From positions 2,474,501 through 2,538,500 of the forward strand of contig NZ_CP025611.1 in assembly GCF_002868735.1 (NCBI RefSeq): a DNA stretch of 64,000 bases. The letters are read 5' to 3'. Numbering within the stretch: the first letter of the stretch is position 1; every line of letters begins with the position of its first letter. Below the pieces are notes generated by a model, which saw only the letters and a list, made by a program, of their open reading frames with translations, was not told the DNA's origin and did no database searches. Source of the stretch: Niveispirillum cyanobacteriorum (lineage in GTDB: Bacteria > Pseudomonadota > Alphaproteobacteria > Azospirillales > Azospirillaceae). Positions 6,895 to 37,615 of the stretch are shown piece by piece. The translations under genes and the position numbers were made by a program.

Positions 6895-7950
6895 TTAAAG
6901 CCAGCCGCGCTTGCGGAAGTACCAGAGCGGTAGGACGGCGGACAGCACCATCAGGCCCAGCGCCAGCGGATAGCCGAAGCTCCAGTCCAGTTCCGGCATA
7001 TGTTCGAAATTCATGCCATAGATGCTGGCAACCAGCGTTGGCGGCAGGAAGGCGACAGACGCGACCGAGAATATTTTGATGATGTTGGTCTGCTGGATAT
7101 TGATCACGCCCAGCGTGGCATCCAGCAGGAAGTTGGTCTGCATGGCCTGAAAGGCGGCATGTTCGACCAGGGAATGTATGTCGCGCCCGATGGTCTTCAG
7201 CCGCGATTTCTGGTCCTTGTTCATGCGCGGGCCCGTTACGGTGGTGGCAAAGGCCACCAGCCGTTCCAGGCCAGCCAGACTGTCCCGCACCTTCTGGGTC
7301 AGGTCGCCGGCCCGGCCCACGGCGGTGATGACGGCGCGCATCGACACCGTTGTGGGCGGGCGGCGGCGGACATGGGTGCGGTCCACCACCTGATGGCGCG
7401 GCGCCTTGGCCCCGTCGCGGATGGCCAGCGTTTCCACCGTCCGATCCTCATGATCGGCGAAGACGCGGTGCGACAACCGGTCCAGGTCCGCCGTGACACG
7501 TTCCAGAACGTCGGCGGCGCGGTCCACTACGGCCTCCAGCAGGCCCAGGAACGCTTCCATCGGGCAGGTCACCAGTTCCTGCTGTTTCAGGGCGCGGGCC
7601 GCGAAGATGGCGAACCAGAGCGGTTCGGTATAGCGGATGGTGACCAGCCGGTCAGGGGCCAGCACAAAGGTCAACAGCCCGCGTTCCAGCAGGCCCGTGG
7701 CGGAGCGTACGATGACCGGCGTGGTCATGAAGGCCACCTCCCCCTCGGTATAGAGGCGGGAGGAGGTTTCGATCTCGTTGATATCTTCCAGGGTCGGCAG
7801 GTCCGCCGACAGCAGGTTGGAAACGGTCAGCCGCTCCATCTCGTCCGGGTGCAGCAGGTCAAGCCAGACCGTGCCCGGGGGAATGGCATCCCCCGGACCC
7901 ACAGCCTGGGCCGTCAGGCCACTGGCGTCCCGGACGTAAGCCGTAATCAA
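6895..7950 (-). CDS. corA: CorA-family magnesium/cobalt transporter
   Basis: 351 aa, typical CorA length. The long soluble N-terminal funnel domain is followed by two C-terminal membrane helices. The signature YGMN follows the first helix ([25 protein letters not shown]), then an acidic loop (ELDW), the second helix and a basic tail. It forms a pentameric Mg2+ channel in the inner membrane (family knowledge). The apparent start is TTG at 7950-7948, overlapping the folD stop, so translation is probably coupled; MITAYV at the N-terminus agrees with relatives. It is the last gene of the minus-strand unit yggT-DUF167-folD-corA. Confidence 0.9.
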
Positions 7951-8861
7951 AGGCCGATCCCGGCGGGCAGGGGCACACCGGCGCTGCGGCAGGCGGCGGT
8001 GACGGTATTGGCCAGCAGACAGGCAATGGTCATCGGCCCCACCCCACCCGGCACCGGTGTAATGGCCCCGGCCACCGACGCCGCCTCGGCATAACAGACA
8101 TCGCCCACGATGCGGGTCTTGCCGGCAGCAGCAGCGGCGGGATCACGGGCCGGCACACGGTTAATGCCGACATCGATGACCACCGCCCCTTCCTTGATCC
8201 AGTCGCCCTTAACCATTTCCGGGCGGCCCACGGCGGCGACTAGGATATCCGCCTCGCGGCAGATGCCGGCCAGATCGCGGGTGCGGGAGTGGGCAATGGT
8301 GACAGTACAGTCGGCCTGCAACAGCAGCTGCGCCATGGGCTTGCCCACGATGTTGGACCTTCCCACGACAACGGCATGCATGCCGCGAAGGTCCTTCACC
8401 GTATCCTTCAGCAGCATCATGCAACCCAGCGGCGTGCAGGGCACCAGGGCCGGCAGCCCAACCGATAGGCGCCCGGCATTGACCACATGGAACCCGTCCA
8501 CATCCTTGGCCGGATCAATGGCCGACAGCACGGCCTGCGCATCGATATGGCCGGGCAGGGGGAGCTGGACCAGAATGCCGTGGATCGACGGGTCATTGTT
8601 CAGCTGGTTGACCAGACGCAGCAGCTCATCCTGGCTGGTGGAGGCATCCAGCCGGTGGGTGACGGAATGCATGCCGGCTTCGCGGGTCTGTTCGCCCTTG
8701 TTGCGGACATAGATGGCGCTGGCCGGGTCCTCGCCCACCAGCACCACGGCCAGACCGGGGACCAGGGCATGGGTGGTACGCAACTGCTCCACGGCGGCGC
8801 CGATGCGCGCCCGCAAGCCGGCGGCGAAGCCCTTGCCATCAATGATGCGTGCCTCGGCCAT
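7947..8861 (-). CDS. folD: Bifunctional methylenetetrahydrofolate dehydrogenase/cyclohydrolase
   Basis: 304 aa, the normal FolD size. It interconverts 5,10-methylene-THF, methenyl-THF and 10-formyl-THF using NADP(+) in the cytosol, supplying one-carbon units. Visible hallmarks: [14 protein letters not shown] with the catalytic Lys, [11 protein letters not shown], the dinucleotide-binding [16 protein letters not shown], and [12 protein letters not shown] near the C-terminus. It lies 32 bases after the DUF167 gene and overlaps corA by 4 bases. The coding sequence looks intact. Confidence 0.96.
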
Positions 8862-8893
8862 ATCCGGTCTCCCCGTTCTCTCAACAAAAGTGG

Positions 8894-9217
8894 CTACAGC
8901 CCGCCCAGCCAGTCACTCAGCCGGGGCATCAGGGCCTCTGTCTCGCCGGCAACGAATAATATCTTTGACCGGTCCGTGCCACCCGCGACGACGCCGATGC
9001 TGCTTTTCGGAATTCGCCACGCTTTGGCCAGCAGTTCGATGATGGCAGCGTTGGCCTTGCCATCTTCCGGCACGGCGGTGACCGCGATCTTTACCTGCTG
9101 CCGCCCGTCGGCCCCCTCCGCCACGCCCTGTACTGCGTTGCGGCTGGCGCGGGGGGTGGCGCGGACAAACAGCCGCACGCCGCCCTGGGCCGGTTCCAGA
9201 GGCGGCCTGACGGTCAT
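8894..9217 (-). CDS. DUF167 (YggU-family) protein
   Basis: 107 aa. It carries the DUF167 pattern: [12 protein letters not shown], then [25 protein letters not shown] and the strand/helix [14 protein letters not shown]. The family folds as a small alpha/beta protein of unknown biochemical role and very often sits beside yggT, as here. The ATG overlaps the yggT stop by one base (TGATG), so the two are translated together. It precedes folD on the same strand. Confidence 0.88.
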
Positions 9218-9516
9218 CAGATGATGCCGTAATTCAGGATCAAGCGCTGGATGAACATTACGATCAGGATCAGGACGACCGGCGACAGATCGACGCCCCC
9301 CAGATTGGGCAGGACATTGCGGATGGGCCGCAGGGCCGGTTCCGTCAACCGGTACAGCACGTCAGAGATCATATAGACCGCCCGGTTGCGGGTGTTCACC
9401 ACATTGAAGGCGATCAGCCAGGACAGGATGGCTGAAATGATCAGCACCCAGACATAGAGGTCCAGCGCCACATAAAGGATTTCGGCGATGGTGCGCAGCA
9501 GCGGGTCCATGTTCAT
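9217..9516 (-). CDS. YggT-family integral membrane protein
   Basis: 99 aa from the ATG at 9516 (MNMDPLL), preceded by GGA about 8 bases upstream. A longer frame reaching 9666 encodes an unrelated, charged N-terminus and is rejected. Two hydrophobic segments (about residues 10-35 and 72-95) flank the conserved middle TEPALRPIRNVLPNLGGVDLSP, which identifies the family. Homologues have been linked to osmotic stress and to cell-division or thylakoid organisation; the precise role is unknown. First gene of the yggT-DUF167-folD-corA unit. Its promoter should lie in 9520-9660. Confidence 0.88.
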   Translation of the reverse strand: MNMDPLLRTIAEILYVALDLYVWVLIISAILSWLIAFNVVNTRNRAVYMISDVLYRLTEPALRPIRNVLPNLGGVDLSPVVLILIVMFIQRLILNYGII

Positions 9517-9668
9517 TCCATGTCCGGTGGGCGGGCGGCGGATACCGACCCGCATCTGTTGAGGAACGTAATGTCGCGACCCCGCCCTGTCCACCCCTGC
9601 GCGGGTCCGCCCCGGATCGGGACCATGGGGCCATGCACCAAATGTAGGCCCTGGCCGTGAAGGCATGC

Positions 9669-9697
9669 TTGACAGGGCGGGGCCAGATCAGCATTAT
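9669..9697 (+). promoter_or_regulatory. Sigma-70 type promoter for tRNA-Ala
   Basis: TTGACA (9669-9674, perfect -35) is separated by 17 bases from CATTAT (9692-9697, 4 of 6 matches to TATAAT). A start near 9704 would give a leader of about 39 bases before the mature tRNA 5' end at 9743. Spacing and position fit a stable-RNA promoter. Confidence 0.65.
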
Positions 9698-9742
9698 CCG
9701 CGCCACTTCGGGGGCCTGCCGTTCTGGTAGGTTCGATGGTGC

Positions 9743-9818
<76 letters not shown>

Positions 9819-9931
9819 TTCCTCCGGGTTTCCGATCAGACTTGAATTTCGGGTTCGGCAGATGCATCGCTGTTCCGGCATGGCCGACCTGATATGCTGG
9901 TATCCACGCCCTTTGGCGGGAAGGCAGCCTT

Positions 9932-10285
9932 ATGCCCACTGAGATACGGCACATCATCTTCACCAATGAAGAGGTGATCCGCGCGGTCGTGGATTATCAC
10001 CGCCGTTCGGGAAACCCCCTGCCGTCGGGTAGCATCATCCGTCTGGAAATCCAGACGGAGCCGCAGGTGCGCTGCGCCCTGCATATTGGTCTGGATGACG
10101 GGGCGCGGCAGGTGCAGTGGATCGATAACCCCACGCTGGCCGCCTGCCTCATCTTCTACTGCATCAATCAGCGTATCCCGCTACCCACCAAATCGGCCAA
10201 GCAGTTGCATATGATGAACGACAAGGTCACCCTGGTTGTTCACAAGAATGCCCAGACCGACCGGGGCGGCGCGCGGGTGGCATGA
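9932..10285 (+). CDS. Conserved hypothetical protein
   Basis: 117 aa, no signal peptide or membrane segment. The N-terminus (MPTEIRHIIFTNEEVIRAVVDYHRR) and the central hydrophobic segment NPTLAACLIFYCINQRIPLP suggest a compact alpha/beta protein. I recall similar proteins in Rhodospirillales but no assigned function. It stands alone between the tRNA gene and the PAS-domain gene. The start is ATG at 9932 with GGGAAGG about 11 bases upstream. Codon usage matches the neighbours. Confidence 0.75.
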   Translation: MPTEIRHIIFTNEEVIRAVVDYHRRSGNPLPSGSIIRLEIQTEPQVRCALHIGLDDGARQVQWIDNPTLAACLIFYCINQRIPLPTKSAKQLHMMNDKVTLVVHKNAQTDRGGARVA

Positions 10286-10371
10286 TTTGGCCCCTCAGGT
10301 GCCGACTGCGCTCAGAGCATCCTATTGTTGCAGTGCGGTGAATATAGACAGCCTTCAATGACGGGCGCACC

Positions 10372-10953
10372 ATGCCCGCCACCTTCCACCATGGCGGTTC
10401 CAGCCCCATGATATCAGGCACGGCAAACCGGTCCGACGATCCCATGCCCCCGCCCGCGGAAAGCGCTCCCGCCCTGTTGCAACCCCTGCTGCCCTGGTGG
10501 CGGGCGCTGCCCCGCGCGGAAGGGACCTTGCCGCTCTGGACGGGTGAACTGGTCTTCGATCTGAAACCCTGGCTGGGCCATCTGCTGATGGCGCGGTTCC
10601 CGCGTGATGGGTCGGGGGCGCATTACACGCTGTACGGCTCTGGGCTGGTCGAATTCACGGGCCGCGACCTGACGGGGCGGGGCCTGCGCGATGCCAGCAA
10701 GTCGCCTGGCTTCAAGCTGACCGCCGACAGCTATGTGACCGCCCGGCAGACCGGTCGCGCGCATTGGAGCCGGGTGCGTGTAGACCTGCCGGGCGGGGAC
10801 AATGTGCGCTATGACCGGCTGCTGCTGCCCTTTGCTTGTGCCGATGGCGATGCCCGCGTCCTGGGCGCCATCCGTTTTGACCGCCACCTGCCCCGGCACT
10901 GGGATGCCGACGATATGCGCCTGTCGATCGAGCAGGAGGCGTTGCTGGGATAG
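10372..10953 (+). CDS. PAS_5-type PAS-domain protein
   Basis: Up to 193 aa; ATGs at 10372, 10408 and 10444 are all possible because no strong Shine-Dalgarno decides. The core matches single-domain PAS_5 proteins of alphaproteobacteria: WTGELVFDLKPWLGHLLMARF, then HYTLYGSGLVEFTGRDLTGRGL, then a central helix and the paired strands RVRVDLP...YDRLLLPFA...LGAIRF. No output domain is attached, so it may act by protein contact or ligand binding. Function is unknown. It ends 4 bases before the convergent gene at 10958. Confidence 0.7.
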   Translation: MPATFHHGGSSPMISGTANRSDDPMPPPAESAPALLQPLLPWWRALPRAEGTLPLWTGELVFDLKPWLGHLLMARFPRDGSGAHYTLYGSGLVEFTGRDLTGRGLRDASKSPGFKLTADSYVTARQTGRAHWSRVRVDLPGGDNVRYDRLLLPFACADGDARVLGAIRFDRHLPRHWDADDMRLSIEQEALLG

Positions 10954-10957
10954 GAGG

Positions 10958-11452
10958 TTACATATAGTGACCCAAAGACAGGAAGTTTTCCTTTGTTGTG
11001 GCATCGACAGGCAGTTCCCGCTCCAGAACCAGTTCCGCCACGCGCGCGGCGATGGCGTCAAAGCCGGTGAGCTGGCTTTCGATGCTGTAACGGCCCCGGC
11101 CCGCCCGGATAGTCAACTGCATCCAGCCGCCTGACTTGTCCTTCTTTGTTGAATAGTAGCGCAGCTTCACGCCCGTGATCTGGTCCCAGCGGGCCATGAC
11201 CATGAAGAAGCCGCTGGGCAGGACCAGGCCTTCTTCCGTTACCCGGCAGGCCGCCCCGCGCCGGGCCAGCGTTCGCAACCCCAGCCAGCCGAACAACCCA
11301 GCCCCCGCCAGCAGCGGCACCGCCACCAGCGGGTGGGCATCGAACCCGACCAGGGCAAGGGGGCCCAGCGTCACCGCCAGGCCCCCCGCCGCCCGCAACC
11401 CGTCAGCCTTTAGCGCATCTGCCGGATAGCGGCCGAACCCCGGTTCTGTCAC
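10958..11452 (-). CDS. Membrane protein with a PH-like C-terminal domain, unknown function
   Basis: 164 aa. Two hydrophobic stretches near residues 20-60 (GGLAVTLGPLALVGF and VAVPLLAGAGLFGWLGL) are followed by a soluble domain with an aromatic, basic strand pattern (VLPSGFFMVMARWDQITGVKLRYYSTKKD) like bacterial PH/DUF304-type domains. The start overlaps the stop of the oligopeptidase gene by 4 bases, so it is cotranscribed and probably coupled. No catalytic motif is seen. Confidence 0.7.
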   Translation of the reverse strand: MTEPGFGRYPADALKADGLRAAGGLAVTLGPLALVGFDAHPLVAVPLLAGAGLFGWLGLRTLARRGAACRVTEEGLVLPSGFFMVMARWDQITGVKLRYYSTKKDKSGGWMQLTIRAGRGRYSIESQLTGFDAIAARVAELVLERELPVDATTKENFLSLGHYM

Positions 11453-13930: not shown

Positions 13931-15547
13931 ATGGGGGGCGGACCAGCCGCATGGCGGCGGACGGAACGGGGTCAAGCCTTGGTTGATGACGATTTCCTGT
14001 TCGCGGAGGATGGCACCCTCAAGGGTGCGCCTGCCGCGCTGCCGGAAAGCCGCCAGCCGGACGGCCCGCCCTGGCGCATTCTGATCGTCGATGACGATGA
14101 GGAGGTGCATTCCGTCACCCGCTACGCCCTGCGCAAGGTACGCTTCCGCGACCGCCCGCTGGAACTGCTGTCCGCCTATTCCGCGGCACAGGCGCTGACC
14201 ATGCTGGCGGCAGAGGCCGATGTGGCCCTGGTCCTGCTGGACGTGGTGATGGAGACGGATGATGCCGGCCTGCGTCTGGTCCGCGCAATCCGCGAGGATC
14301 TGGCGGATACCGCCATCCGCATCATCCTGCGCACCGGACAGCCGGGGCAGGCGCCCGAGGAACGGGTGATCGTCGATTACGACGTCAATGACTACAAGGC
14401 CAAGACGGAACTCACCTCGCAGAAGCTGTTCACGACCGTGATCGCCGCCCTGCGTGCCTATGACAGCATCACGACCATCGAGGCCAACCGCCGTGGCCTG
14501 CGCCGCATGATCGCGCTGGATGACCGGCTGCGCCCCGATATGGGGATGGAGGCCTATGCCCAGACGGTCCTGGAACAGGCCGGCCCCATCCTGGGCGCCA
14601 ATGCCTGCGGTCTTGCCTGTGTCGTGGAGGGGGTGGAGGGCTGGTCCATCGGCGGCACCCGTTTCCGGCCCCTGGCCGCCACAGGACGTTTTGCCGATAT
14701 GACAGCGGTCCCGGAAGGCAGCCCTCTGCATGAACGGCTGCTGGCCGCCCTGGCCGACCGGCGCACGGGCGTGGCCGGACAGACAGCCACGCTCTACATG
14801 CCCGGCCCCGATGGCGGGGCCTTCCTGGCCATTCTGGATTGCGACCGTGTGCTGATGCCAGCGGATGCGGAGATGCTGGGCGTTCTGACGGCCAAGTTCG
14901 CGGGCGGGTTGGTCAATCTGGTGCTGTATGAACAGCTGAGCCAGGCCAATACCGACCTGCGCGCCCTCACCCAGACGCTGGAACATCGCGTCGCTGAACG
15001 CACCCGCGAGCTGTCGGAAGCCAATGCCAAGCTGGAAACGCTGGCCAGCATCGACAGCCTGACCGGCATCCTGAACCGCCGCCGCTTCATGGAACTGGCC
15101 GAGGCGGAATGGGATCGCTGCACACGTTATGGCCGCGCCTTCTCCCTGCTGCTGCTGGACCTGGATCAGTTCAAGCGCATCAACGACAACCACGGGCATG
15201 CCGCCGGCGACACCGCGATCCGCGTTGCCGCTGAACGGGCGGGCAGCAGCCTGCGCACCACCGATTGCCTGGCCCGCTTCGGGGGGGAAGAACTGGTGGC
15301 CATGTTGCCTGAAACCGACCTGCCGGCGGCCCTGCTGGCGGCGGAACGCATCCGCAGCGCCATCGGCACCCATCCCGTCCTGCATGAGGACAAGGCCATC
15401 CCGCTGACCACCAGCATCGGCGTTGCCTCCTGGCGCGGGGATACGGAAACACTGGCCCAATTGCTGGACCGCGCCGATCAGGCGCTGTATCAGGCGAAGC
15501 TGCAGGGCCGTAACCGCGTGGAAGCGTCCCGCGTCACCGTTTCCTGA
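13931..15547 (+). CDS. Response regulator with DUF3369 and diguanylate cyclase domain
   Basis: 538 aa. Domain order: receiver (about 49-170, phospho-acceptor Asp104 in LVLLDVVMETDD, switch Lys in DYKAKTE), DUF3369 sensor-like domain (about 175-330), a short coiled coil (NTDLRALTQTLEHRVAERTRELSEANAKLE), then GGDEF (about 365-530) with an intact GGEEL active site at 451-455, so cyclic-di-GMP synthesis is expected. The receiver has DDDEE in place of the usual acidic pair. The AGGAAG Shine-Dalgarno supports the ATG at 13931. No histidine kinase is adjacent; the PAS kinase at 17655 is a possible but unproven partner. Confidence 0.9.
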   Translation: MGGGPAAWRRTERGQALVDDDFLFAEDGTLKGAPAALPESRQPDGPPWRILIVDDDEEVHSVTRYALRKVRFRDRPLELLSAYSAAQALTMLAAEADVALVLLDVVMETDDAGLRLVRAIREDLADTAIRIILRTGQPGQAPEERVIVDYDVNDYKAKTELTSQKLFTTVIAALRAYDSITTIEANRRGLRRMIALDDRLRPDMGMEAYAQTVLEQAGPILGANACGLACVVEGVEGWSIGGTRFRPLAATGRFADMTAVPEGSPLHERLLAALADRRTGVAGQTATLYMPGPDGGAFLAILDCDRVLMPADAEMLGVLTAKFAGGLVNLVLYEQLSQANTDLRALTQTLEHRVAERTRELSEANAKLETLASIDSLTGILNRRRFMELAEAEWDRCTRYGRAFSLLLLDLDQFKRINDNHGHAAGDTAIRVAAERAGSSLRTTDCLARFGGEELVAMLPETDLPAALLAAERIRSAIGTHPVLHEDKAIPLTTSIGVASWRGDTETLAQLLDRADQALYQAKLQGRNRVEASRVTVS

Positions 15548-15562
15548 AGGCGTTCATCGACC

Positions 15563-16234
15563 ATGCCCCTGACCGCACCGGCCTTTCCCCGGCCCCTGCA
15601 CGCTGTTGTCTTCGATATGGACGGGCTGCTGATCGACACGGAACGCCATGTGCGCGAAGCGACGCTGGGGGCGGCGCTGGATGTTGGCCGGCCCATGGAT
15701 GATGATTTCTATGCTGGCATCATCGGCACGCCCTGGCCCGAAACGCTGGCTATGCTGAAGGATTATTTCGGCGGGCAGGACGGGTTTGACCGGTTCCGCG
15801 CCCATTTCGTGCCCCGGATGGAGGCCTTGCGCCAAGGCGTGGAGATGATGGCGGGTGTGGTCGAACTGCTGGACTATCTGGACACAGCAGGCCTGCCCAA
15901 GGCCGTGGCGACCTCCACGGGCCGGGAGAAGGCCGACGAACATCTGCGCCATGTCGGCATCCATCATCGTTTCGATGCCATCGTCACCCGCGATGACGTC
16001 ACGCGCGGCAAGCCGCATCCCGAACCGTACCTAACGGCGGCCCGGCTGCTGGGTGTTGATCCCGCCCATTGCCTGGCGCTGGAGGACAGCCATAACGGCA
16101 TCCGCTCCGCCCATGGCGCCGGCATGATGGCGGTGATGGTGCCCGACCTGCTACCCGCCACGGACGAGATGCGGGCGCTGGCCCTGCATGTGGCCGAAAG
16201 CCTGCATCAAGTGCGGGGAATGCTGCGGGGGTGA
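15563..16234 (+). CDS. HAD-superfamily phosphatase/phosphoglucomutase-like hydrolase
   Basis: 223 aa, subfamily IA size. Motif I FDMDGLLIDTE gives nucleophile Asp18 and acid/base Asp20. The helical cap spans about 30-90. Motif II is VATSTGR, motif III Lys is in RGKPHPEPY, and motif IV is LEDSHNGIRSAHGAGM. This is the pattern of beta-phosphoglucomutase and small-sugar-phosphate phosphatases (YniC/GPH type). Substrate cannot be predicted. It begins 15 bases after the GGDEF gene on the same strand and may share its transcript. Confidence 0.88.
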   Translation: MPLTAPAFPRPLHAVVFDMDGLLIDTERHVREATLGAALDVGRPMDDDFYAGIIGTPWPETLAMLKDYFGGQDGFDRFRAHFVPRMEALRQGVEMMAGVVELLDYLDTAGLPKAVATSTGREKADEHLRHVGIHHRFDAIVTRDDVTRGKPHPEPYLTAARLLGVDPAHCLALEDSHNGIRSAHGAGMMAVMVPDLLPATDEMRALALHVAESLHQVRGMLRG

Positions 16235-30045: not shown

Positions 30046-31845
30046 ATGACCACGCGACAGCAGCCGGGGCTGACTGGTGCTGAGGCCGGATCCACGGCTG
30101 AACGAACCCTGCGCGGCCTGGGCGTGTCGCCCGGCATCGCCATTGGCCCCGCCCATGTCATGGAGGCGGGGGCCATCCAGGTCCCCGAATATACCGTCGT
30201 CGAGACGGCGTTGGCAGACGAGGTCGCCCGGTTCCATGGGGCTGCCGAAAAGGCACGCCGGCAGTTGGGCAAGCTGAAGGCCAAGGCCGGCACCCTGCCC
30301 GCCGATGCCGCTGCCGACATGGCCATCCTGCTGGACGCGCATCAGGCCATGCTGTCGGGATCGCGTCTGATCCGGGGCGTTGAACGGCGCATCCGCACCG
30401 AACGCCTGAACGCCGAATCGGCTGTGCAACAGGAGATCACGGTCCTGGCGCAGAGCTTTGCCGCTATGGACGATGCCTATCTGGCCGCCCGCGTCGCCGA
30501 TGTGCGGGAGGTGGGGCGCCGCCTGATCCGCAATCTGATGGAAACGCCCTATCAGGCCTTCTCCCGCCTGCCGGACGGCGCCATCATCCTGGCCGAGGAA
30601 CTGTCCCCGGCCGACACGGCCCTTCTGGACCCGCGCCGTATCGGTGGTTTCGCGACGGTGCTTGGCGGGGCGGAGGGGCATACGGCCATCATGGCCCGTT
30701 CCCTGTCACTGCCCGCCGTGCTGGGTGCTGCGGGCCTGTTGCAGGGTGTGGAGACGGGCGATCTGGTGGTGGTGGATGGGCGCGCGGGCCGCGTGCTGAT
30801 CAACCCGTCAGAGGATGTGCTGGCCGATTACCGGCAGCGTCAGGCCCTGTGGAAGGCCGAGCGGGAGCAGCTGAAGGCTCTGGCAGGCCTTCCCGCCATC
30901 ACGCGCGACGGCACATCCCTGACCCTGAACGCCAATCTGGAACTGCCGCGCGAGATGGAGGGGGCCCGCGATGCCGGGGCCGCCGGTGTCGGCCTGCTGC
31001 GGACCGAGTTCATGTATATGAACCGCGACGATCTGCCGGGCGAAGAGGAACAGTATCAGGAGTTACGCGACCTGATCATCGCCATGGACGGCCGGCCCGT
31101 CACGGCCCGCACCCTGGATGTGGGTGGAGAAAAGCTGGCGGGTGCCCTGGCCGACCGGTTCGCCACGCCGGCCAATCCGGCCCTGGGCCTGCGCGCCATC
31201 CGCCTGGGTCTGAAGGAACCAAAGCTGCTGGAGACGCAGCTGGCCGCCATGCTGCGCGCCGGGGCACACGGGCCGATCCGCATCCTGGTCCCGATGATCA
31301 GCAACCCGTCGGAGATGCGCAAGGTACGCGAGCTGATGCGCGCCGTGGCCCGCCGCCTGCTGCGCCGGGGCCATGCCATCGCCGATCCGCTGCCCCCGCT
31401 GGGCGCCATGATCGAGATACCGGGGGCGGCGCTCGCCGCCGACAGTCTGGCCAGCGTATCGGACTTCTTCGCCATCGGCACCAATGACCTGATCCAGTAT
31501 ACACTGGCCATCGACCGTGGCGATGAACAGGTCGCCTATCTCTATGACCCGCTGCACCCCGCCGTGCTGCGTCTGGTGCAGTTCACGGTGGAGGCGGCAG
31601 GACGGGCCGGCATTCCGGTTTCCGTCTGTGGCGAAATGGCGGGTGATCCACGCTATGCCGCCTTGCTGCTAGGCTTGGGCGTGCGCGAACTGTCCATGGC
31701 GCCGGGCAATCTGCCCCTGGTGAAGCGCCGGGTGCGCGGCCTGGACCTGCGCGAGGCGACGCGGCGGGCCGGTATGATCATGAGCCAGACCGATGGCGGG
31801 CGCATTGCGGCACTGCTGGATGATTTCAACGAAGCGTTGGGGTAA
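30046..31845 (+). CDS. ptsI: Phosphoenolpyruvate-protein phosphotransferase (enzyme I)
   Basis: 599 aa, standard EI length with no GAF domain, unlike PtsP at 1732. Domains: HPr-binding helical N-part, swivelling domain with phospho-His212 in GGAEGHTAIMARSL, and PEP-binding barrel with LLRTEFMYM, TLDVGGEKL and Cys528 in SVCGEMAGDP. The usual T-S before the active His reads E-G here. GGGGAG precedes the ATG. Last gene of the regulatory PTS operon hprK-rapZ-EIIA-HPr-EI. With PtsP, the genome has at least two enzyme I proteins that could cross-talk. Confidence 0.95.
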   Translation: MTTRQQPGLTGAEAGSTAERTLRGLGVSPGIAIGPAHVMEAGAIQVPEYTVVETALADEVARFHGAAEKARRQLGKLKAKAGTLPADAAADMAILLDAHQAMLSGSRLIRGVERRIRTERLNAESAVQQEITVLAQSFAAMDDAYLAARVADVREVGRRLIRNLMETPYQAFSRLPDGAIILAEELSPADTALLDPRRIGGFATVLGGAEGHTAIMARSLSLPAVLGAAGLLQGVETGDLVVVDGRAGRVLINPSEDVLADYRQRQALWKAEREQLKALAGLPAITRDGTSLTLNANLELPREMEGARDAGAAGVGLLRTEFMYMNRDDLPGEEEQYQELRDLIIAMDGRPVTARTLDVGGEKLAGALADRFATPANPALGLRAIRLGLKEPKLLETQLAAMLRAGAHGPIRILVPMISNPSEMRKVRELMRAVARRLLRRGHAIADPLPPLGAMIEIPGAALAADSLASVSDFFAIGTNDLIQYTLAIDRGDEQVAYLYDPLHPAVLRLVQFTVEAAGRAGIPVSVCGEMAGDPRYAALLLGLGVRELSMAPGNLPLVKRRVRGLDLREATRRAGMIMSQTDGGRIAALLDDFNEALG

Positions 31846-31891
31846 AAGGGATAATTATCCCTATACGCCCGCACCGACGCGAGGGCCGCCG

Positions 31892-32689
31892 ATGACGCCA
31901 TGGACCTGTAAAGCGCTCGCCCTGGCCGCCCTTCTGGCCATGACCGAGCCTGCCATCGCCCAGGCCGACCTGACCATCCGGGAGGAACGGGCGGTCACGG
32001 TGGACGGCGCACCAGAGGTTTGGCAGGTGGCCTGGGTCGGCCCCGTGCGCGATTATTGCGAGGCGGTAAGCCCGGAAGTGGCCATGACGCCTGCCTGTGC
32101 CGTCTTCGCCCGTGGACAGGCGGGCCGCCTTCTGCTGCGCCGGCTGCGCGGTGGGGCCGTGGTGGATCAGTTTGATCCCGCCCCGGCCTTCAAGGGCATG
32201 GGGGATGGCTGGACCGATGGCTGGTCACTGCTGCCCCGCCATGCCGTGCGCGACGATGATTATGAGCGCTGGCTGGAGGATGAGGGGGCATTCCTGCGCG
32301 CCGTCCAGGAGCGTCCGACTGCCACCGTCCTGGAACTTTATGATTACAACCGCGACGGCAAGGCTCAGGAATTCCTGATCCGCACCGAAACCGGACCATC
32401 GGGTCGGGGGCTTTATGCCGCTGTCGGCCTGATCGGGGGCAAGCTGGGCTTTCTGCACTCCACCGGTCGGCCCGACCGGGCCCTTGTGCTACCGCGCGAC
32501 ATCTGGGTGGCGCTGCGCGACCGTGGAGGGCCGGTCTCCCAGACAAAATCGGCCTGCGGGGACAAGGGTGCATCATTGCGCAGCGAACAGGTCCTGACTG
32601 CCGCCGATGGCCGGATCGGTGTGAGGGCGCGCGATTATGAATGCGCCCTGGGTACCCCGCCCGTGTTGAAAGCGGAATATGACGGATAG
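31892..32689 (+). CDS. Secreted hypothetical protein
   Basis: 265 aa from the ATG at 31892 (GAGGG upstream). A signal peptide is clear (CKALALAALLAMTEPAIAQA, cleavage near residue 24). The mature part has Cys residues in YCEA, PACAV, SACGD and YECAL that could form two disulfides, and a segment LYDYNRDGKAQEFLIRTE resembling an FG-GAP/EF-hand-like Asp-rich loop. I recognise no family. It starts 46 bases after ptsI with no obvious terminator between. Downstream lies a set of strong hairpins. Confidence 0.7.
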   Translation: MTPWTCKALALAALLAMTEPAIAQADLTIREERAVTVDGAPEVWQVAWVGPVRDYCEAVSPEVAMTPACAVFARGQAGRLLLRRLRGGAVVDQFDPAPAFKGMGDGWTDGWSLLPRHAVRDDDYERWLEDEGAFLRAVQERPTATVLELYDYNRDGKAQEFLIRTETGPSGRGLYAAVGLIGGKLGFLHSTGRPDRALVLPRDIWVALRDRGGPVSQTKSACGDKGASLRSEQVLTAADGRIGVRARDYECALGTPPVLKAEYDG

Positions 32690-32715
32690 GAATGACGGCC
32701 CTGTTCTATACCAAC

Positions 32716-32752
32716 GGCACGAAACCATGACCGATGGTCAAGATTTCGTGCC
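32716..32752 (+). ncRNA. Two-tier hairpin, first of a folded intergenic segment
   Basis: GGCACGAAA (32716-32724) pairs with TTTCGTGCC (32744-32752); inside, TGACC (32728-32732) pairs with GGTCA (32736-32740) around GAT, with a symmetric 3-base internal loop. The apical part contains ATGACCGATGG, a sequence that recurs in the hairpin at 32825-32853. Either a terminator complex for the secreted-protein gene or part of a structured leader for the cluster at 32915. Confidence 0.55.
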
Positions 32753-32804
32753 CCTCAATCGCCGGCAGGCGCGTCCGCGCCCTTGGCTACGCCGCACGGG
32801 CGGC

Positions 32805-32824
32805 GCGGCGGCAGTCGCCGCCGT
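32805..32824 (+). ncRNA. GC-rich hairpin in the folded intergenic segment
   Basis: GCGGCGGC (32805-32812) pairs with GCCGCCGT (32817-32824, last pair G-U) around AGTC. It directly abuts the next hairpin, so the two could stack coaxially. Confidence 0.5.
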
Positions 32825-32853
32825 GCCATCGGTCATAGTTTATGACCGATGGC
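32825..32853 (+). ncRNA. Perfect 13-bp hairpin before the dehydrogenase cluster
   Basis: GCCATCGGTCATA (32825-32837) pairs with TATGACCGATGGC (32841-32853) around GTT, followed by TTTATTC, a modest U-rich tail. It may be an intrinsic terminator, yet it repeats the ATGACCGATGG core of the hairpin at 32716. It ends 61 bases before the start of the BchC-like gene. Confidence 0.6.
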
Positions 32854-32914
32854 TTTATTCGCCCCTGCCTTCTCCCGTATGCTGCCCGCCCCTGTTCATG
32901 GAGCGTGAGAGCAC

Positions 32915-33892
32915 ATGATGCCCCTGCCCGACCGTGCCACCGCCTTCTGGACGCTGGCCCCTGGCAAAGGGGCGCTGTGCCAGCAGGAACTGTCCGAACC
33001 CATGGCCGGCGACGTCCTGGTCCGCGCGCTGGCCAGTGGGATCAGCCGCGGGACGGAGGGGCTGGTCTTCCGGGGCGGCGTGCCTGCCGAACTGCACCCC
33101 CTGATGCGCTGCCCGTTTCAGGAGGGGGATTTTCCGGGGCCGGTTAAATATGGCTATGCCCTGGTCGGCATCGCCGATTATGGCCCTGCCAATCTGAAGG
33201 GGCGGCGCGTCTTCTCTCTGCACCCGCATCAGGATGTGGCCGTGATCCCGGTCGAGGGATGCCGCCCCGTCCCCGATGCCGTCCCCACCGAGCGCGCCGT
33301 GTTGGCCGCCAACATGGAGACGGCCCTGAACATCCTGTGGGATGGCGGGGCCGCACCCGGACAGCGCATCGCCGTGGTGGGCGGGGGCATTGTCGGCGGG
33401 CTGACAGCCTATCTGGCGGCACGCATGCCGGGAGCGGATGTCACGCTGATCGATATCGACCCGGCCCGCGCCGACCTGGCCCATGCCTTTGGCGCCGCAT
33501 TCGCGACGCCGGATAATGCCGACAGCTTGGATTGCGATCTGGTCATTCATACCAGCGCCAGCCAGAGCGGCCTTGCCACCGCCCTGCGCCTGGCGGGGAT
33601 GGAGGCCACCATCGTGGAGGCATCCTGGTACGGCGACCGGCCCGTGACGGTGCCGCTGGGCGGTGGTTTCCATGCCGGACGACACCGCATCATCTCCTCG
33701 CAGGTGGGCAGGGTCTCCCCCTCCTTCCGCCCGCGATGGACCCTTTCGCGGCGTCTGGACAAGGCCTTGTCGCTGCTGGCCGATCCGGTTCTGGACCTTC
33801 TGGTTGGCCCGAGTGTTGATTTCACGCACTTGCCCATGGCCATGGCAGACCTAGCTGGCCTGTCATTCGGGTGTCCCGTCGTTCGTTACTAG
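32915..33892 (+). CDS. Medium-chain dehydrogenase, BchC-like, lacking the catalytic zinc cysteine
   Basis: 325 aa. MDR fold: N-terminal domain with ALASGISRGTEGLVFRG, then FPGPVKYGYALVG and LHPHQDVAVIP; Rossmann motif VVGGGIVGGLTAYLAAR (about 152-168) with LIDIDPARAD; a conserved EASWYGDRPVTVPLGGGFH near the end. Where zinc alcohol dehydrogenases have CGICGTD this protein has SGISRGTE, the pattern I recall from BchC, so it probably does not use the classical zinc site. It heads a four-gene plus-strand cluster with pterin-synthase-like, glycosyltransferase and methyltransferase genes. Substrate is unknown. A role in that pathway is inference. Confidence 0.82.
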   Translation: MMPLPDRATAFWTLAPGKGALCQQELSEPMAGDVLVRALASGISRGTEGLVFRGGVPAELHPLMRCPFQEGDFPGPVKYGYALVGIADYGPANLKGRRVFSLHPHQDVAVIPVEGCRPVPDAVPTERAVLAANMETALNILWDGGAAPGQRIAVVGGGIVGGLTAYLAARMPGADVTLIDIDPARADLAHAFGAAFATPDNADSLDCDLVIHTSASQSGLATALRLAGMEATIVEASWYGDRPVTVPLGGGFHAGRHRIISSQVGRVSPSFRPRWTLSRRLDKALSLLADPVLDLLVGPSVDFTHLPMAMADLAGLSFGCPVVRY

Positions 33893-33917
33893 TATTCCGT
33901 TCTCTGAAAGGACAGGC

Positions 33918-34334
33918 ATGTATTCCGTGTCGGTGCGTGACCACATCATGATCGCCCATTCCTTTGTGGGGGCGATCTTCGGCCCGGCGCAGGCCCTGCA
34001 CGGAGCCACCTTTGTCGTAGATGCCGAATTCCGCCGCCGACAGCTGTCACCGGAGGGGCTGGTGGTGGATATCGGGGCCGCATCCGCCTTGCTGAAGCAA
34101 GTGCTGGCCCCGCTGAACTATCAGAACCTGGACGAGATGCCGGAATATCGCGGGCGCAACACCACCACCGAATATCTGGCGGGCGATATCCATCGCAAGA
34201 TCGCAGCTGGCATCCGCGCAGGCGCGCTGGGTGCCGATGGGCCGGCGCTGGATGGGCTGCGGGTCGTCTTGTCGGAAAGCCATACCGCCTGGGGTTCGTA
34301 TGAGGCACCGCTGAACGTGGAGGCGGCGCGATGA
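33918..34334 (+). CDS. Divergent 6-pyruvoyl/6-carboxy-tetrahydropterin synthase-fold protein
   Basis: 138 aa, T-fold. Zinc ligand candidates His14 (IAHSF) and His28 (LHGATF) are present, but the third ligand of the usual HGH motif is Ala30, and the catalytic Cys four residues before the first H of HGH is Ala24. Retained features are NYQNLDEMP, NTTTEYLA and the C-terminal SESHTAWGSY. The usual QueD/PTPS reaction on dihydroneopterin triphosphate is therefore doubtful; it may be a different pterin-binding or lyase activity. Its gene overlaps the glycosyltransferase gene by 4 bases. Shine-Dalgarno AAAGGA precedes the ATG. Confidence 0.85.
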   Translation: MYSVSVRDHIMIAHSFVGAIFGPAQALHGATFVVDAEFRRRQLSPEGLVVDIGAASALLKQVLAPLNYQNLDEMPEYRGRNTTTEYLAGDIHRKIAAGIRAGALGADGPALDGLRVVLSESHTAWGSYEAPLNVEAAR

Positions 34335-35392
34335 TCGGTCAGCCCCTGCATATCCTTTGCCCCGGTGACATTAATCAGCTGACGGGCGGATATGGCTATC
34401 TCCGCCGGCTGGTGGCGGGACTGAGTGACCTGGGGGAAACGGTCATCGTGCATGAAATGCCGGGACCGCATCCCTTTGTCGATGATCCGTCGCGCAATGC
34501 TGCCGATGCCATCATGGCGGCCATCCCCGATGGCGCGCCGGTCCTAATCGACGGGCTGGCCCTGCCAGTCGCGGCGCATGCGATCTGGGTCGATCGTTAT
34601 CGCCTGCGCTTTGCCGCCTTGGTGCATCACCCGCTGCATCTGGAAAACGGATTGACGCCGGAACAGGCCGATACCCTATTCCGGATTGAACGCGATGCGC
34701 TGGCCCATATGCGCCACGTCATCGTGCCGTCGCGCACCACGATGAAGGGCGTGATTGACCTGTCGGTACCGCCCGCCCGGATCAGCATCGCCAATCCCGG
34801 TACCGATCCCGCCGAACCCGCCACGGGCAGCGGCAGCGGTGATGGCCCCACCATTCTGTGTGTCGCCACCCTGACCCCGCGCAAGGGGCATCTTGTGCTG
34901 ATCGAGGCTCTGGCTCGCGTCAGGCACCTGCCCTGGCGGCTGGTCCTGGTGGGCAGTGATGCCCGCCATCCCGGACAGGCCGCCTCCATCGCCCTGTCCG
35001 TTGCCGGGCACGGTCTGGCCGACCGGGTGCGGCTGGCGGGTGAATTGTCGGGCCCGGCGCTGAGTGCCGAATGGCGCGCGGCGGACCTGTTCACCCTGGT
35101 CAGTTTTCATGAGGGCTATGGCATGGTTGCCGCCGACGCCCTGAAACGCGGCCTACCCTGTATCGTCACCGATGCCGGCGGTTTGGCAGAGGTGGTGCCC
35201 CCCGAGGCCGGAGCTGTTGTCCCGCCGGGCGACGTGGCCGCCCTGGCCGCGGCCTTTGAAAGGCTTCTGTCAGATTCTGAAGCGCTGGACACGGCCCGCG
35301 CGGCAGCACGGCGGGCGGGCGATGGGTTGCCGACATGGCAACATTCTGTGTCATTGATCAGGGACGCCCTATCCGTCATCCTGGTTTCCTAA
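34331..35392 (+). CDS. Glycosyltransferase, GT4 family (GT-B fold)
   Basis: 353 aa, no membrane segment. The N-terminal Rossmann domain opens PLHILCPGDINQLTGGYGYLRRLVAGL. The C-terminal nucleotide-sugar domain contains ILCVATLTPRKGHLVLIEAL, LVLVGSD, ADLFTLVSFHEGYGMVAADALKRGLP (the E-x7-E type motif: EGYGMVAADA) and GAVVPPGDVAALA. Retaining GT4 enzymes use UDP-, GDP- or ADP-sugars. It overlaps the pterin-fold gene, so a soluble small-molecule acceptor such as a pterin is more likely than lipid-linked polysaccharide (inference). Confidence 0.85.
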   Translation: MIGQPLHILCPGDINQLTGGYGYLRRLVAGLSDLGETVIVHEMPGPHPFVDDPSRNAADAIMAAIPDGAPVLIDGLALPVAAHAIWVDRYRLRFAALVHHPLHLENGLTPEQADTLFRIERDALAHMRHVIVPSRTTMKGVIDLSVPPARISIANPGTDPAEPATGSGSGDGPTILCVATLTPRKGHLVLIEALARVRHLPWRLVLVGSDARHPGQAASIALSVAGHGLADRVRLAGELSGPALSAEWRAADLFTLVSFHEGYGMVAADALKRGLPCIVTDAGGLAEVVPPEAGAVVPPGDVAALAAAFERLLSDSEALDTARAAARRAGDGLPTWQHSVSLIRDALSVILVS

Positions 35393-35413
35393 GGAAAGTG
35401 ATCGGACACCGAC

Positions 35414-36283
35414 ATGAACCTTGATTTCGAATCCGACTGGCTGCGCCTGCGCGAACCGCTGGACGAAGCGGCGCGGGCCGTGGGGCTGGCCTGGGCCTTC
35501 GGGCGCGTGCTGCCGGCCCATCCCATGATCATCGATCTGGGTGCGGGGACCGGCAGCAATGTCCGGCAACTGGCCATGAAGCTGGGTCGGGGCGAGCAGG
35601 ATTGGACCCTGATCGAGAAGGACCGCAAGCTTCTGGCCAAGGCACCGGGGGAGATCGGGCGCTGGGCTGACCGCAATGGCTGGGAGCATAAGGAACAACG
35701 CCGCGCCTATATGATCACCTGCGACGACATGGCCGTGCGGGTGGAGATGCGCAGCTTCGATCTGGCGCAGGATCCGGCGGAACTGGGCCTGAACCAGTAT
35801 GACGGTATCACCGCCAAGGCCCTGTTCGATCTGGTGTCGCTGCCCTGGCTGGACCGGTTCGTGAAAGAACTGGCCAGTTGCGGCTTCCCCCCCCTGCTGG
35901 TGACGCTGACTGTTGACGGGCGCGTCGAGTTTTCCATTGCGGATGAGGATGACGGGTTCGTGCTGGACCTGTTCCACACCCATATGGGCCGGGCCAAGGG
36001 CCTGGGCGGACCCGCCCTGGGACCGGCGGCCCCGCAGGCCCTGGCCAATGCCCTGACGGGGGCAGGGTATAAGGTGGAAACGGCCCAGGCCGACTGGAAG
36101 ATCGGGCCCAAGCAGATTGCCGCCCATCTGGCCATGATCGCCGGCTATGAAAAGGCAGCCAAGGAGCAAGACCCCGGCAACAGCGCCCGCATCGCAGCCT
36201 GGGCCGACCGCCGCCGCACCCTGGCCAGCGAACAGGGTGCACGCCTGATGGTCGGCCACCAGGATCTCCTGGCCAAACGGTAA
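35414..36283 (+). CDS. Class I SAM-dependent methyltransferase
   Basis: 289 aa. SAM-binding motif I is IIDLGAGTGSNVRQLA (about 37-52), followed by the acidic LIEKD of motif II. The centre has GITAKALFDLVSLPWLDRFV and the C-terminal half an unusual LVTLTVDGRVEFSIADEDDGFV. It begins 21 bases after the glycosyltransferase gene and closes the cluster. Target atom and substrate are not readable. The last residues are strongly basic/polar without known tags. Confidence 0.8.
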   Translation: MNLDFESDWLRLREPLDEAARAVGLAWAFGRVLPAHPMIIDLGAGTGSNVRQLAMKLGRGEQDWTLIEKDRKLLAKAPGEIGRWADRNGWEHKEQRRAYMITCDDMAVRVEMRSFDLAQDPAELGLNQYDGITAKALFDLVSLPWLDRFVKELASCGFPPLLVTLTVDGRVEFSIADEDDGFVLDLFHTHMGRAKGLGGPALGPAAPQALANALTGAGYKVETAQADWKIGPKQIAAHLAMIAGYEKAAKEQDPGNSARIAAWADRRRTLASEQGARLMVGHQDLLAKR

Positions 36284-36294
36284 ACCTTAAAACC

Positions 36295-36328
36295 CGGCAG
36301 CGACTGCTGCCGCGCCGCACGTGCGGCG
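36295..36328. terminator. Hairpin pair between convergent genes
   Basis: CGGCAG (36295-36300) pairs with CTGCCG (36307-36312), followed at once by the 16-base palindrome CGCCGCACGTGCGGCG (36313-36328). They lie 12 bases after the methyltransferase stop and 49 before the amidohydrolase stop. No clear U-tract, so probably bidirectional 3'-end structures. Confidence 0.5.
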
Positions 36329-36376
36329 TAAAGCCAAGCGGCGGATGCCGCGCCGGCGCTTGAGGCAACTGAAAGA

Positions 36377-37615
36377 CTAAAACCCCGCGGCGGACGCGGG
36401 GGCAAAGCCCAGTACGGGCGCGGCGCGGGACAGGGTGACGCGCACCCCATCCTTCCACAACGCCAGATGCCGCGATGCATCCGCCGCCGCCTCGATATCC
36501 GCCACGACATTGCCGGGCACCAGCAGCAGGTCCGCTGCCGCACCCTTCACAATGCGGCCACGGTCAGGGAAATCCAGAAGATCGGCGGCAACCGAGGTCC
36601 CGGCCTTCAATGCGGCCAGCGGGTCCATGCCCAGCGCCACCATGTGCCGCAGTTCCTGCGCATTCTCGCCATGGCGGTTGCCGGGCGTACCGGCATCGGT
36701 GCCCAGCGCCACCACCCCGCCCGCAGCGACAAAGCGTCGGAAACTGTCGAAATGCATGCTGCCGAACCGTTCCGCCTTGGCCCGAACAAAGGCAGGCAGC
36801 CGGTCCTTCATCTCCAGCAGGGCCATCATGGCGGACAAGGTGGGGACCAGCCGCACGCCCTTGTCGATCATGATGGCGACCTGCGCGTCGGTCAGTTCGA
36901 ACCCATGTTCGATACTATCCACCCCCGCCGCGACGGCACGGGCAATGCCCCGCGCGCCCTGGGCATGGGCTGTGATCTTCAAGCCGAAATCGTGGGCCAT
37001 GGTGACGGCGGCGGCCAGTTCACCCTCCGCCGGATGCGGGGCCAGCGGATCCACTCCGCCCGTCAGCACGCCGCCGGTGGCGATCAGCTTGATACAGTCG
37101 GCCCCGTGTTTGACATTGGTGCGCACCCCGCGCAGCCAGTCGTTGGGCCCGTCGCATTCAATCCCGATCCAGGCCCCGTGCCCGCCGGTAATGGTCAGCG
37201 CCTTGCCCGCACAGCGCATGGAGGGGCCGACATGCCGGCCCGCACGGATGGCGTCGCGGATGGAGATTTCCAGCCATTCCACCCCGCCCAGATCACGCAT
37301 GGACGTGATGCCGCCGGCCAGCGTGGCTTGGGCATTCTCCAGCAGGCGCAGGGTCAGGTCGCCCATGGGGCGCTGCCGCAGGGTGGTGACGACGTCCCCC
37401 GTCGCCTCCAGCGCCAGATGCACATGCGCATCGACCAGACCCGGCATCAAGGTGGCGCCCGACGTATCGTGACGCGGGCCCGCATAGCCTACGAAATCCG
37501 CCACCGGCGCTACCGATGCGACGTGCCCGTCACTGACCAGCACGCCCAGCCCGGGCTGCGGGACTGAAAGCCCGTCAAACACCAGACCACCGGACAGGAG
37601 CAATTGCTGCGTCAT
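36377..37615 (-). CDS. Metal-dependent amidohydrolase (imidazolonepropionase/prolidase-like)
   Basis: 412 aa. Amidohydrolase barrel ligands are visible: HVHL (DAHVHLALE, about 62-66), a candidate carboxylated Lys in CIKLIATGGV, HAQG, IEHGFEL and the final Asp in LGTDAGTPGN. This matches the COG1228 group, whose characterised members hydrolyse N-acyl or X-Pro dipeptide bonds or imidazolonepropionate. No signal peptide; probably cytosolic. GAAGG lies 8 bases before the ATG. It faces the pterin-like cluster convergently, so a shared pathway is only a possibility. Confidence 0.85.
   Translation of the reverse strand: MTQQLLLSGGLVFDGLSVPQPGLGVLVSDGHVASVAPVADFVGYAGPRHDTSGATLMPGLVDAHVHLALEATGDVVTTLRQRPMGDLTLRLLENAQATLAGGITSMRDLGGVEWLEISIRDAIRAGRHVGPSMRCAGKALTITGGHGAWIGIECDGPNDWLRGVRTNVKHGADCIKLIATGGVLTGGVDPLAPHPAEGELAAAVTMAHDFGLKITAHAQGARGIARAVAAGVDSIEHGFELTDAQVAIMIDKGVRLVPTLSAMMALLEMKDRLPAFVRAKAERFGSMHFDSFRRFVAAGGVVALGTDAGTPGNRHGENAQELRHMVALGMDPLAALKAGTSVAADLLDFPDRGRIVKGAAADLLLVPGNVVADIEAAADASRHLALWKDGVRVTLSRAAPVLGFAPASAAGF

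Follow-up and report, generated by a model that had tools for sequence, protein, structure and literature searches.

A conserved four-gene operon with a PTPS-IV protein in Niveispirillum cyanobacteriorum is the core of an orphan pathway that may make a decorated pterin-like compound

The window, a stretch of 64,000 nucleotides of the Niveispirillum cyanobacteriorum genome, carries at positions 32915-36283 of the + strand four genes for a zinc-less, BchC-like medium-chain dehydrogenase of 325 aa (DH, 32915..33892), a T-fold protein of 138 aa (33918..34334), a GT4 glycosyltransferase of 353 aa (34331..35392) and a class I SAM methyltransferase of 289 aa (35414..36283). The ORF coordinates confirm the head-to-tail arrangement described in an earlier note on this DNA, with distances of 25, -4 and 21 bases, the GT4 gene overlapping the T-fold gene by 4 bases. 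A terminator-like hairpin of 13 pairs followed by a T-rich run, recognised by consensus match only, lies 5' of the operon (32825..32853, + strand), and an Rfam search of positions 31500-36700 returned no match.

The T-fold protein had been described as having a pterin-synthase fold, and it does match PF01242 (74 bits, cut-off 22.4), but the chemistry of 6-pyruvoyltetrahydropterin synthase (PTPS) or QueD cannot be assumed for it, the catalytic residues being lost. It is 56% identical to SCO6650 of Streptomyces coelicolor (E 9e-43), whose structure (PDB 3d7j) was released in 2008 and matches it in a fold search with a TM of 0.91, and it carries FGPAQ at residues 21-25, F21, G22, P23, A24 and Q25 each being conserved in 99-100% of 105 sequences. 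These are the rows kept from 143 matched loci once identical rows, rows with a stop and rows that fail to cover residues 3-128 had been left out. According to the available text of PMC5445326, FGPAQ is the signature of the PTPS-IV subfamily of COG0720; this subfamily, with SCO6650, is the closest known system and shares with the genes studied here this motif and a PF00925/PF01872 gene neighbourhood. Throughout the alignment, no Cys occurs within residues 15-30 (0/105), the position of Cys27 of E. coli QueD being F (one Y); the third zinc His (His33 of E. coli QueD) is Ala, so that HGA is read in 105/105; Asp70 is represented by N (87), A (6), D (3), S (3), G (2) or T (2), and His71 by Y (96) or F (9). 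The protein has neither the CxxxHGH motif and catalytic Cys, Asp and His of PTPS-I (QueD) nor, in the 105-sequence alignment, the motifs that the available part of PMC5041015 gives for PTPS-II (CxxxxxHGH) and PTPS-III (ExxHGH). PTPS-IV shares with QueD and PTPS (PTPS-I, PTPS-II) the T-fold (TM about 0.7 to QueD), two zinc His and a Glu, but has lost the catalytic Cys, Asp and His as well as one zinc His. The Glu, E120, is kept in 105/105 sequences and we take it to be the pterin-anchoring residue. Judged by its sequence, the T-fold protein belongs to PTPS-IV, not to QueD or PTPS. It is hardly credible that the gene is the genome's QueD, serving queuosine precursor synthesis: no other PF01242 gene was found in the genome and a QueC match was seen (22.7 bits with its neighbours against a cut-off of 22), but that match is weak and partial (positions 2-61 of 210), no que gene stands among the identified recurring neighbour families (F14 and F15, which recur in 8 and 7 loci, left out), and the QueD score of 29.8 bits (cut-off 89) and the lost motif contradict the assignment. 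The literature search found no product for PTPS-IV or 3d7j and no paper naming SCO6650; papers on SCO6650 and SCO6655 have reportedly come from Bandarian, and SCO6655 is named in a metabolic-model paper. Besides PMC5445326 and PMC5041015, the term PTPS-IV is used in an unrelated polysaccharide paper.

DH had been called BchC-like. BchC, the 3-hydroxyethyl bacteriochlorophyllide dehydrogenase, is indeed its best named family (TIGR01202, top NCBIfam model, residues 23-247 covered), but the score of 49.4 bits lies far below the cut-off of 291.25 and the gene neighbourhoods differ; DH is therefore a distant relative of BchC, and BchC itself is ruled out. Its SRGTE (44-48) and KYGY (78-81) motifs, invariant in 18/18 sequences, presumably occupy the positions of the zinc Cys and of GHE in classical MDRs. 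The GT4 domains (PF13692/PF00534) are recognised at E about 1e-28, with profile matches to Tll1590 (6kih, 3e-41), D-inositol-3-phosphate glycosyltransferase (7qsg, 2e-36) and a PimB-type enzyme (3okc, 4e-27). The methyltransferase matches no curated family above cut-off, PF13649 (E 0.002, below the family cut-off) being its sole Pfam match, and its AF2 model (mean pLDDT 95) resembles class I SAM methyltransferases. Since its best solved relatives are generic members of that class (3mgg_B: Z 20.2, rmsd 3.2, 239 aligned), the fold matches do not point to a substrate; no pterin methyltransferase is among the structural matches listed for the model. D41, G45 and G47 of the SAM loop are invariant in 23/23 methyltransferases, and the protein carries an N-terminal WLxLREP and a C-terminal VGHxDLL block.

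Together, the four genes form the core of a widespread, conserved bacterial orphan pathway, which we call the PTPS-IV pathway. The arrangement is not a chance one: DH and GT4 flank the T-fold gene on one strand, in the collinear order DH-T-fold-GT4, in 78 of the 80 loci compared, and in 30/30 loci of a second draw from 44 matching genomes, the window's own included. The earlier note's view of a dedicated gene set is thus borne out, and its remark that the DH and T-fold subfamilies stand together in other alphaproteobacteria holds far beyond that class, the loci coming from Proteobacteria and Actinomycetota. The neighbourhood search that it proposed with the T-fold protein also shows that co-occurrence is not rare, the methyltransferase being present in 74 of the 78 loci used for neighbour counts (96 loci less the 18 that reach under 4 kb on a side, two places being counted twice). 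Among 59 related genomes, again with the window's own, the 21 with the T-fold gene all have DH at E <= 1e-50, and 0/38 others do. The literature search found no paper on the full gene set, and we know of no metabolite or enzyme assay for it as a whole.

Frequent partners of the core are RibA (cyclohydrolase II, PF00925; 54 of the 78 loci) and RibD_C (PF01872; 48). One or both are linked in 64/78 loci, in two phyla. Both are absent from the other 14, where these genes may lie elsewhere, as they do in the window's genome. The PF00925 and PF01872 neighbourhood of PTPS-IV has already been reported (PMC5445326); the available text of that report makes no mention of the DH, GT4 and methyltransferase core, of the two membrane enzymes described below or of a split arrangement. 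The co-occurring GTP cyclohydrolase that the earlier note advised looking for does exist, but instead of FolE it is a cyclohydrolase II, accompanied by a RibD_C reductase. The window's genome encodes both families, though neither beside the T-fold gene: the cluster-type RibA (L136) adjoins a CDP-alcohol phosphotransferase gene 184 kb from the operon, the two being 78% and 57% identical, respectively, to their counterparts in the N. irakense locus, and the matching RibD_C lies at C1:2099688, 407 kb from the operon. RibD_C of this type (E <= 1e-70) is found in 13/59 genomes, all with the T-fold gene.

This RibA (PF00925, 201.7 bits) keeps the CCC, Y105, D126 and R128 of E. coli RibA, and the cluster-type rows retain Cys54/65/67, D126 and R128; we take these residues and Y105 to be the zinc Cys and functional residues of the E. 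coli enzyme. Tyr105 is replaced in 8/18 rows linked to a creatininase-family gene (18 of the 78 loci) and kept in 10/18, versus 0/43 replacements in readable rows without creatininase; because the replaced rows are one Streptomyces clade and one Actinomadura, the loss represents one or two events. A creatininase-family protein, BrbF, deformylates a formylated cyclohydrolase intermediate, according to the available text of PMC9478397. No creatininase-family gene was found in the window's genome, whose RibA keeps Tyr105, and such an enzyme may therefore not be needed here. The N-terminal half of RibA occurs in 36/59 genomes, so that this RibA may also serve riboflavin synthesis; being non-discriminating, this half was dropped as a phylogenetic marker. 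As far as the available descriptions go, the first two or three steps of the PTPS-IV set and of early riboflavin synthesis with BrbF draw on the same enzyme families, but the reductase of the set stands alone, without a deaminase, and is linked with genes for the T-fold protein, the GT4 and membrane enzymes. A flavin- or deazaflavin-type product, as the riboflavin-type enzymes might suggest and as could follow from a role of PTPS-IV in F420 synthesis that a 2016 review mentions as unpublished (PMC5041015, available part), appears very unlikely: no lumazine or F0 synthase is among the identified recurring neighbour families (F14 and F15 again left out), and with a stand-alone RibD_C the 2-amino group would stay.

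A multi-pass membrane enzyme is encoded upstream of DH in 66/78 loci, an MdoH-like GT2 in 37 and a CDP-alcohol phosphotransferase in 29, with both in 0 and neither in 12, and flippase-like or ABC genes accompany it in part of these loci. This mutual exclusion seems strong by raw count, but only 2 switches are needed to explain it on a FastTree tree with 82 rows (the duplicates L048 and L051 and all rows without the full trio of proteins having been dropped). For this count the 14 rows with neither enzyme were set aside, and the window was assigned by hand to the phosphotransferase type on the evidence of its second locus. Of the 21 genomes with the T-fold gene, 17 have a CDP-alcohol phosphotransferase (E <= 1e-38), which is distant or on a separate contig in G000, G010, G006, G003 and G049; it occurs in 0/38 others. 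Among the remaining 4/21, the 15-kb locus of G020 lacks an MdoH-type gene as well. In G013, the one MdoH-type genome examined, no unlinked phosphotransferase was found. The DGxxAR...G...D...D motif, which we take to be that of CDP-alcohol phosphotransferases, is intact in 34/34 linked enzymes and in the window genome's own copy (PF01066, 49.1 bits, cut-off 22). Apparent matches to MdoH on the strand opposite DH, seen in the window and its relatives, were read as an artefact of over-long seed ORFs, and seeds were length-limited for the 78-locus counts. Family F8, which mixes ABC exporters, is not claimed as a member of the set here; its representative near the second locus looks by eye like an Atm1-type housekeeping exporter.

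By guilt by association, the partner genes suggest that the cell membrane is where the product is handled and that it is no simple soluble pigment, and the soluble compound of the earlier note is not borne out. A soluble pterin glycoside of the cyanopterin kind, with the usual product of cyclohydrolase I as starting material and the GT4 and the methyltransferase as decorating enzymes, would account for these two enzymes in the operon and for the FolE gene of the genome, cyanopterin being a methylated pterin disaccharide, namely 6-hydroxymethylpterin with a 4-O-methylglucuronyl-galactoside (PMC3546692). We nevertheless find it decidedly unlikely, as the partner is cyclohydrolase II with RibD_C, a membrane enzyme is so often present and the T-fold protein has lost the PTPS catalytic residues. 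The analogy with cyanobacterial pterin glycosides (PgtA/BGluT) proves loose: the product class would be the same if the product were a pterin with a sugar and a methyl group, but in the available text of PMC3546692 their entry step is GTP cyclohydrolase I, and no membrane enzyme or cyclohydrolase II is described. Since FolE is present, a second pterin route needs a reason. A pathway to an envelope glycolipid, with a T-fold protein and a DH that no longer use pteridines and with RibA and RibD_C as mere frequent riboflavin neighbours, is an unlikely explanation as well; the GT4 does resemble inositol-phosphate and PimB-type transferases, and the loci contain CDP-alcohol phosphotransferase, MdoH-like and LPG_TM genes (the last in 18 of 78), but it sits poorly with the two-phylum linkage of RibA or RibD_C, with a particular RibD_C that tracks the gene set even when unlinked, and with the invariant E120, the presumed pterin anchor.

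We return to a pteridine product, whose pterin-like nature is supported. From the observed gene content, linkage, co-occurrence and residue changes we infer the reactions and their order, and we judge the chances about even that the gene set makes a decorated 2-amino-4-oxo-pteridine-like compound from GTP in the following way: (i), cyclohydrolase II would open GTP to 2,5-diamino-6-ribosylamino-pyrimidinone 5'-phosphate, either directly or, where the lineage has the creatininase-family deformylase, through the formylated intermediate. (ii), the RibD_C reductase, having no deaminase domain, would convert the ribosyl to a ribityl chain and retain the 2-amino group, so that the product would stay pterin-like rather than lumazine- or flavin-like. 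(iii), the zinc-less DH would oxidise a side-chain alcohol, while the PTPS-IV protein, with its anchoring Glu kept and its catalytic residues lost, would bind the ring and help its closure or rearrangement; after oxidation at C2', cyclisation could give a neopterin-type dihydropterin with no need of cyclohydrolase I. (iv), the GT4 would add a sugar and the methyltransferase a methyl group and, (v), the membrane enzyme, a CDP-alcohol phosphotransferase here and an MdoH-like GT2 elsewhere, would couple the product to a lipid or a glycan, or else carry it toward the envelope. The full gene set, the lost PTPS residues and the interchangeable membrane enzymes make this a concrete and testable pathway hypothesis, and a membrane pterin as product would represent a cofactor or envelope lipid of a new kind. 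It is tempting to speculate further, doubtful though we hold it to be, that the product is a membrane-anchored, glycosylated, redox-active pterin, linked to a phospholipid or glycan, made from GTP by cyclohydrolase II, RibD_C and DH with cyclohydrolase I bypassed, flipped to the outside and perhaps engaged in electron exchange with the respiratory chain; if so, lipid-linked pterins would form a new cofactor class in Proteobacteria and Actinomycetota. The respiratory part of this proposal comes from a cytochrome b561 gene present in 14/78 loci.

The four-gene cluster is a genuine, conserved unit that belongs to a larger orphan pathway. It is arranged exactly as an earlier note had claimed, with four head-to-tail genes on the + strand (32915-36283) spaced by 25, -4 and 21 bases, in a window at C1:2474501-2538500 of the 6.05-Mb Niveispirillum cyanobacteriorum genome. 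The genes encode a BchC-like dehydrogenase (DH, 32915-33892), the T-fold protein (33918-34334), a GT4 glycosyltransferase (34331-35392) and a methyltransferase (35414-36283). Among the matches listed, the closest named relatives of the T-fold protein include those of MAGs labelled Niveispirillum (90% identity) and Azospirillum (89%) and that of Niveispirillum irakense (74%). The T-fold gene has DH immediately upstream and GT4 immediately downstream, on the same strand, in 78 of the best 80 loci from 380 confirmed relatives (more exist); the exceptions are L126, because its DH match is shortened, and L113, which lacks GT4. The methyltransferase comes after GT4 in 56 of these 80 loci and stands elsewhere in the locus in 14; in the other 10, some of them at contig ends, it was not found. 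In a second sample, drawn from 44 matching genomes, both T-fold flanks agree in 30/30 loci, own genome included.

Judged by its sequence, the T-fold protein belongs to PTPS-IV, and a PTPS or QueD identity is excluded. Across an alignment of 105 distinct sequences, taken from 143 matching loci, H14, H28 and E120 never vary and every FGPAQ residue reaches 99-100% conservation. Compared with E. coli QueD, the protein keeps E120 and two His, H14 being paired with His16 by our judgement as the aligner shows a gap there, whereas the third zinc His is replaced by Ala (105/105), Cys27 by Phe (104) or Tyr (1) and His71 by Tyr (96) or Phe (9); the Asp70 site is Asn in 87 and Asp in 3. The protein scores 74 bits with PF01242, its nearest solved structure is SCO6650 (3d7j, E 9e-43), and its AF2 model (mean pLDDT 90) matches 3d7j with a TM of 0.91. 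The subfamily and some of its neighbours have been published before: passages of PMC5445326 give FGPAQ as the PTPS-IV signature and PF00925 and PF01872 as neighbours, and a passage of PMC5041015 names PTPS-IV as an F420 protein, as an unpublished claim.

DH scores 49 bits with the BchC model, against a cut-off of 291, which marks it, at the sequence level, as a distant BchC relative. SRGTE and KYGY, invariant in the DH alignment (n=18), occupy the sites of the catalytic zinc ligands in classical MDR enzymes, so DH is probably zinc-independent. The GT4 profile is closest to Tll1590, MshA-like and PimB-like structures; the methyltransferase has only a weak Pfam match and is confidently predicted to adopt a class I fold.

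Partner families were obtained by de novo ORF clustering, followed by Pfam/NCBIfam searches on one example per family, and counted in those 78 of the 96 loci that have 4 kb or more on each side; two places enter twice, as L048/L141 and as L051/L138. RibA, of the cyclohydrolase II family, occurs in 54 of the 78, RibD_C, of the reductase family, in 48, and at least one of them in 64. The earlier suggestion of a soluble product is not supported, as an MdoH-like GT2 (37/78) or a CDP-alcohol phosphotransferase (29/78) is present in 66 loci; both occur together in 0/78 and neither is present in 12. Every one of these 66 genes is located upstream of DH, with 62 in divergent orientation. Both enzyme types are rich in hydrophobic segments, with 7 in the own phosphotransferase and 8 in one MdoH-like example. 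LPG_TM (18/78) always accompanies the phosphotransferase and FkbM methyltransferase (15/78) always the MdoH-like GT2, as does cytochrome b561 in 13 of its 14 loci; creatininase and an ABC exporter occur in 18 and 19 of the 78. The choice of membrane enzyme needs only 2 changes on the tree of the three core proteins, and so amounts to a clade-level swap rather than a series of independent events.

Co-occurrence was followed in 59 genomes, own included. The T-fold gene is present in 21, and DH (E <= 1e-50) in the same 21 and in 0/38 others (best 1e-7). The phosphotransferase (E <= 1e-38) is found in 17/21 T-fold genomes and 0/38 others (best 1.5e-9); it was not found in G005 and G014 (fragmented assemblies), G020 and G013, the last having an MdoH-type gene (L147) in its place. 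It lies far from the core in the own genome and G010, and on a different contig in G006, G003 and G049. Own-type RibD_C (E <= 1e-70) occurs in 13/21 and 0/38; for 11 of these 13 a long stretch was examined (the window plus ten loci of 20 kb), and none of them has a linked copy. A linked RibD_C is present in G013, G017, G026, G033 and G049, with one beside a DH fragment in G014; G020 has a relative of 43% identity, and none was found in G019. The RibA N-terminal half, in 36/59 genomes, is uninformative.

The own genome has one PF01242 gene, FolE, at best a partial QueC match at cut-off, and three matches each to PF00925 and PF01872; no creatininase gene was found in it. At L136 (~C1:2694557-2695807), a PF00925 gene 78% identical to RibA of the N. 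irakense locus adjoins, and perhaps overlaps, a CDP-alcohol phosphotransferase gene whose N. irakense counterpart is 57% identical. Because the same pair lies directly upstream of DH in N. irakense (L051/L138), the locus must have split in the sublineage of the window, with 184 kb now between its parts. The genome also has a stand-alone RibD_C (C1:2099688-2100368), which shares 45% identity with its counterparts in Micromonospora/Actinoplanes loci. On C3, L134 (C3:733500-753400) carries at 6338-10342 a second divergent RibD_C/RibA pair, next to a WD40-like repeat ORF (by eye) and a protein of 255 aa that matches nothing in Pfam, a gene content reminiscent of toxoflavin-type clusters. L135 (C3:598500-618400) carries a cyclohydrolase II-like copy (14928-16070) with N/H/P at the zinc Cys sites and Ile at the Tyr105 site.

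In the RibA alignment (64 rows, two of them the own paralogues L134 and L135, with L051/L138 the same place), the cluster-type sequences retain all three zinc Cys as well as D126 and R128 (E. coli RibA numbering). At the Tyr105 site, 7 rows have Met and 1 has His, every one of them from a locus with creatininase (8/18; the other 10 have Tyr), and 43/43 readable rows without linked creatininase have Tyr (L082 being an alignment gap). SCO6655, with Met at this site, reportedly stops at the formylated intermediate. Passages of PMC9478397 show a creatininase-family protein that deformylates the formylated cyclohydrolase intermediate. As Tyr105 is replaced only where creatininase is linked, the pattern, drawn from one or two lineages, fits a cyclohydrolase that skips deformylation paired with a deformylase.

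A pterin-like product is our favoured interpretation. From family knowledge, cyclohydrolase II would act first and the RibD_C reductase second. We infer that DH and the T-fold protein would then form the ring, GT4 and the methyltransferase decorate it and the membrane enzyme act last. On paper, DH would oxidise C2' of the ribityl chain, upon which the 5-amino group would close a dihydropterin ring. The membrane step is suggested by gene company and by the phosphotransferase motif, intact in 34/34 linked copies and the own copy. Searches of open-licence PubMed Central turned up no publication on the wider set, on the pair of alternative membrane modules or on the split arrangement in the own genome.

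L113, from a gammaproteobacterial MAG, holds at 1431-7245 DH and T-fold genes without GT4 and methyltransferase, followed by a thioesterase-like ORF and, further on, a bchI-like ORF (both by eye). At L150 (G022, 10329-11350), DH matches are split over two overlapping ORFs, which may reflect gene disruption or an error in the sequence. In the window, the 298-aa ORF 5' of the cluster (31793-32689) has zero Pfam/NCBIfam matches up to E 1. The spacer between it and DH (32690-32914) contains two inverted repeats, a terminator-like hairpin of 13 pairs (32825-32853) and a second near 32723-32760, GGCACGAAA...TTTCGTGCC (by eye).
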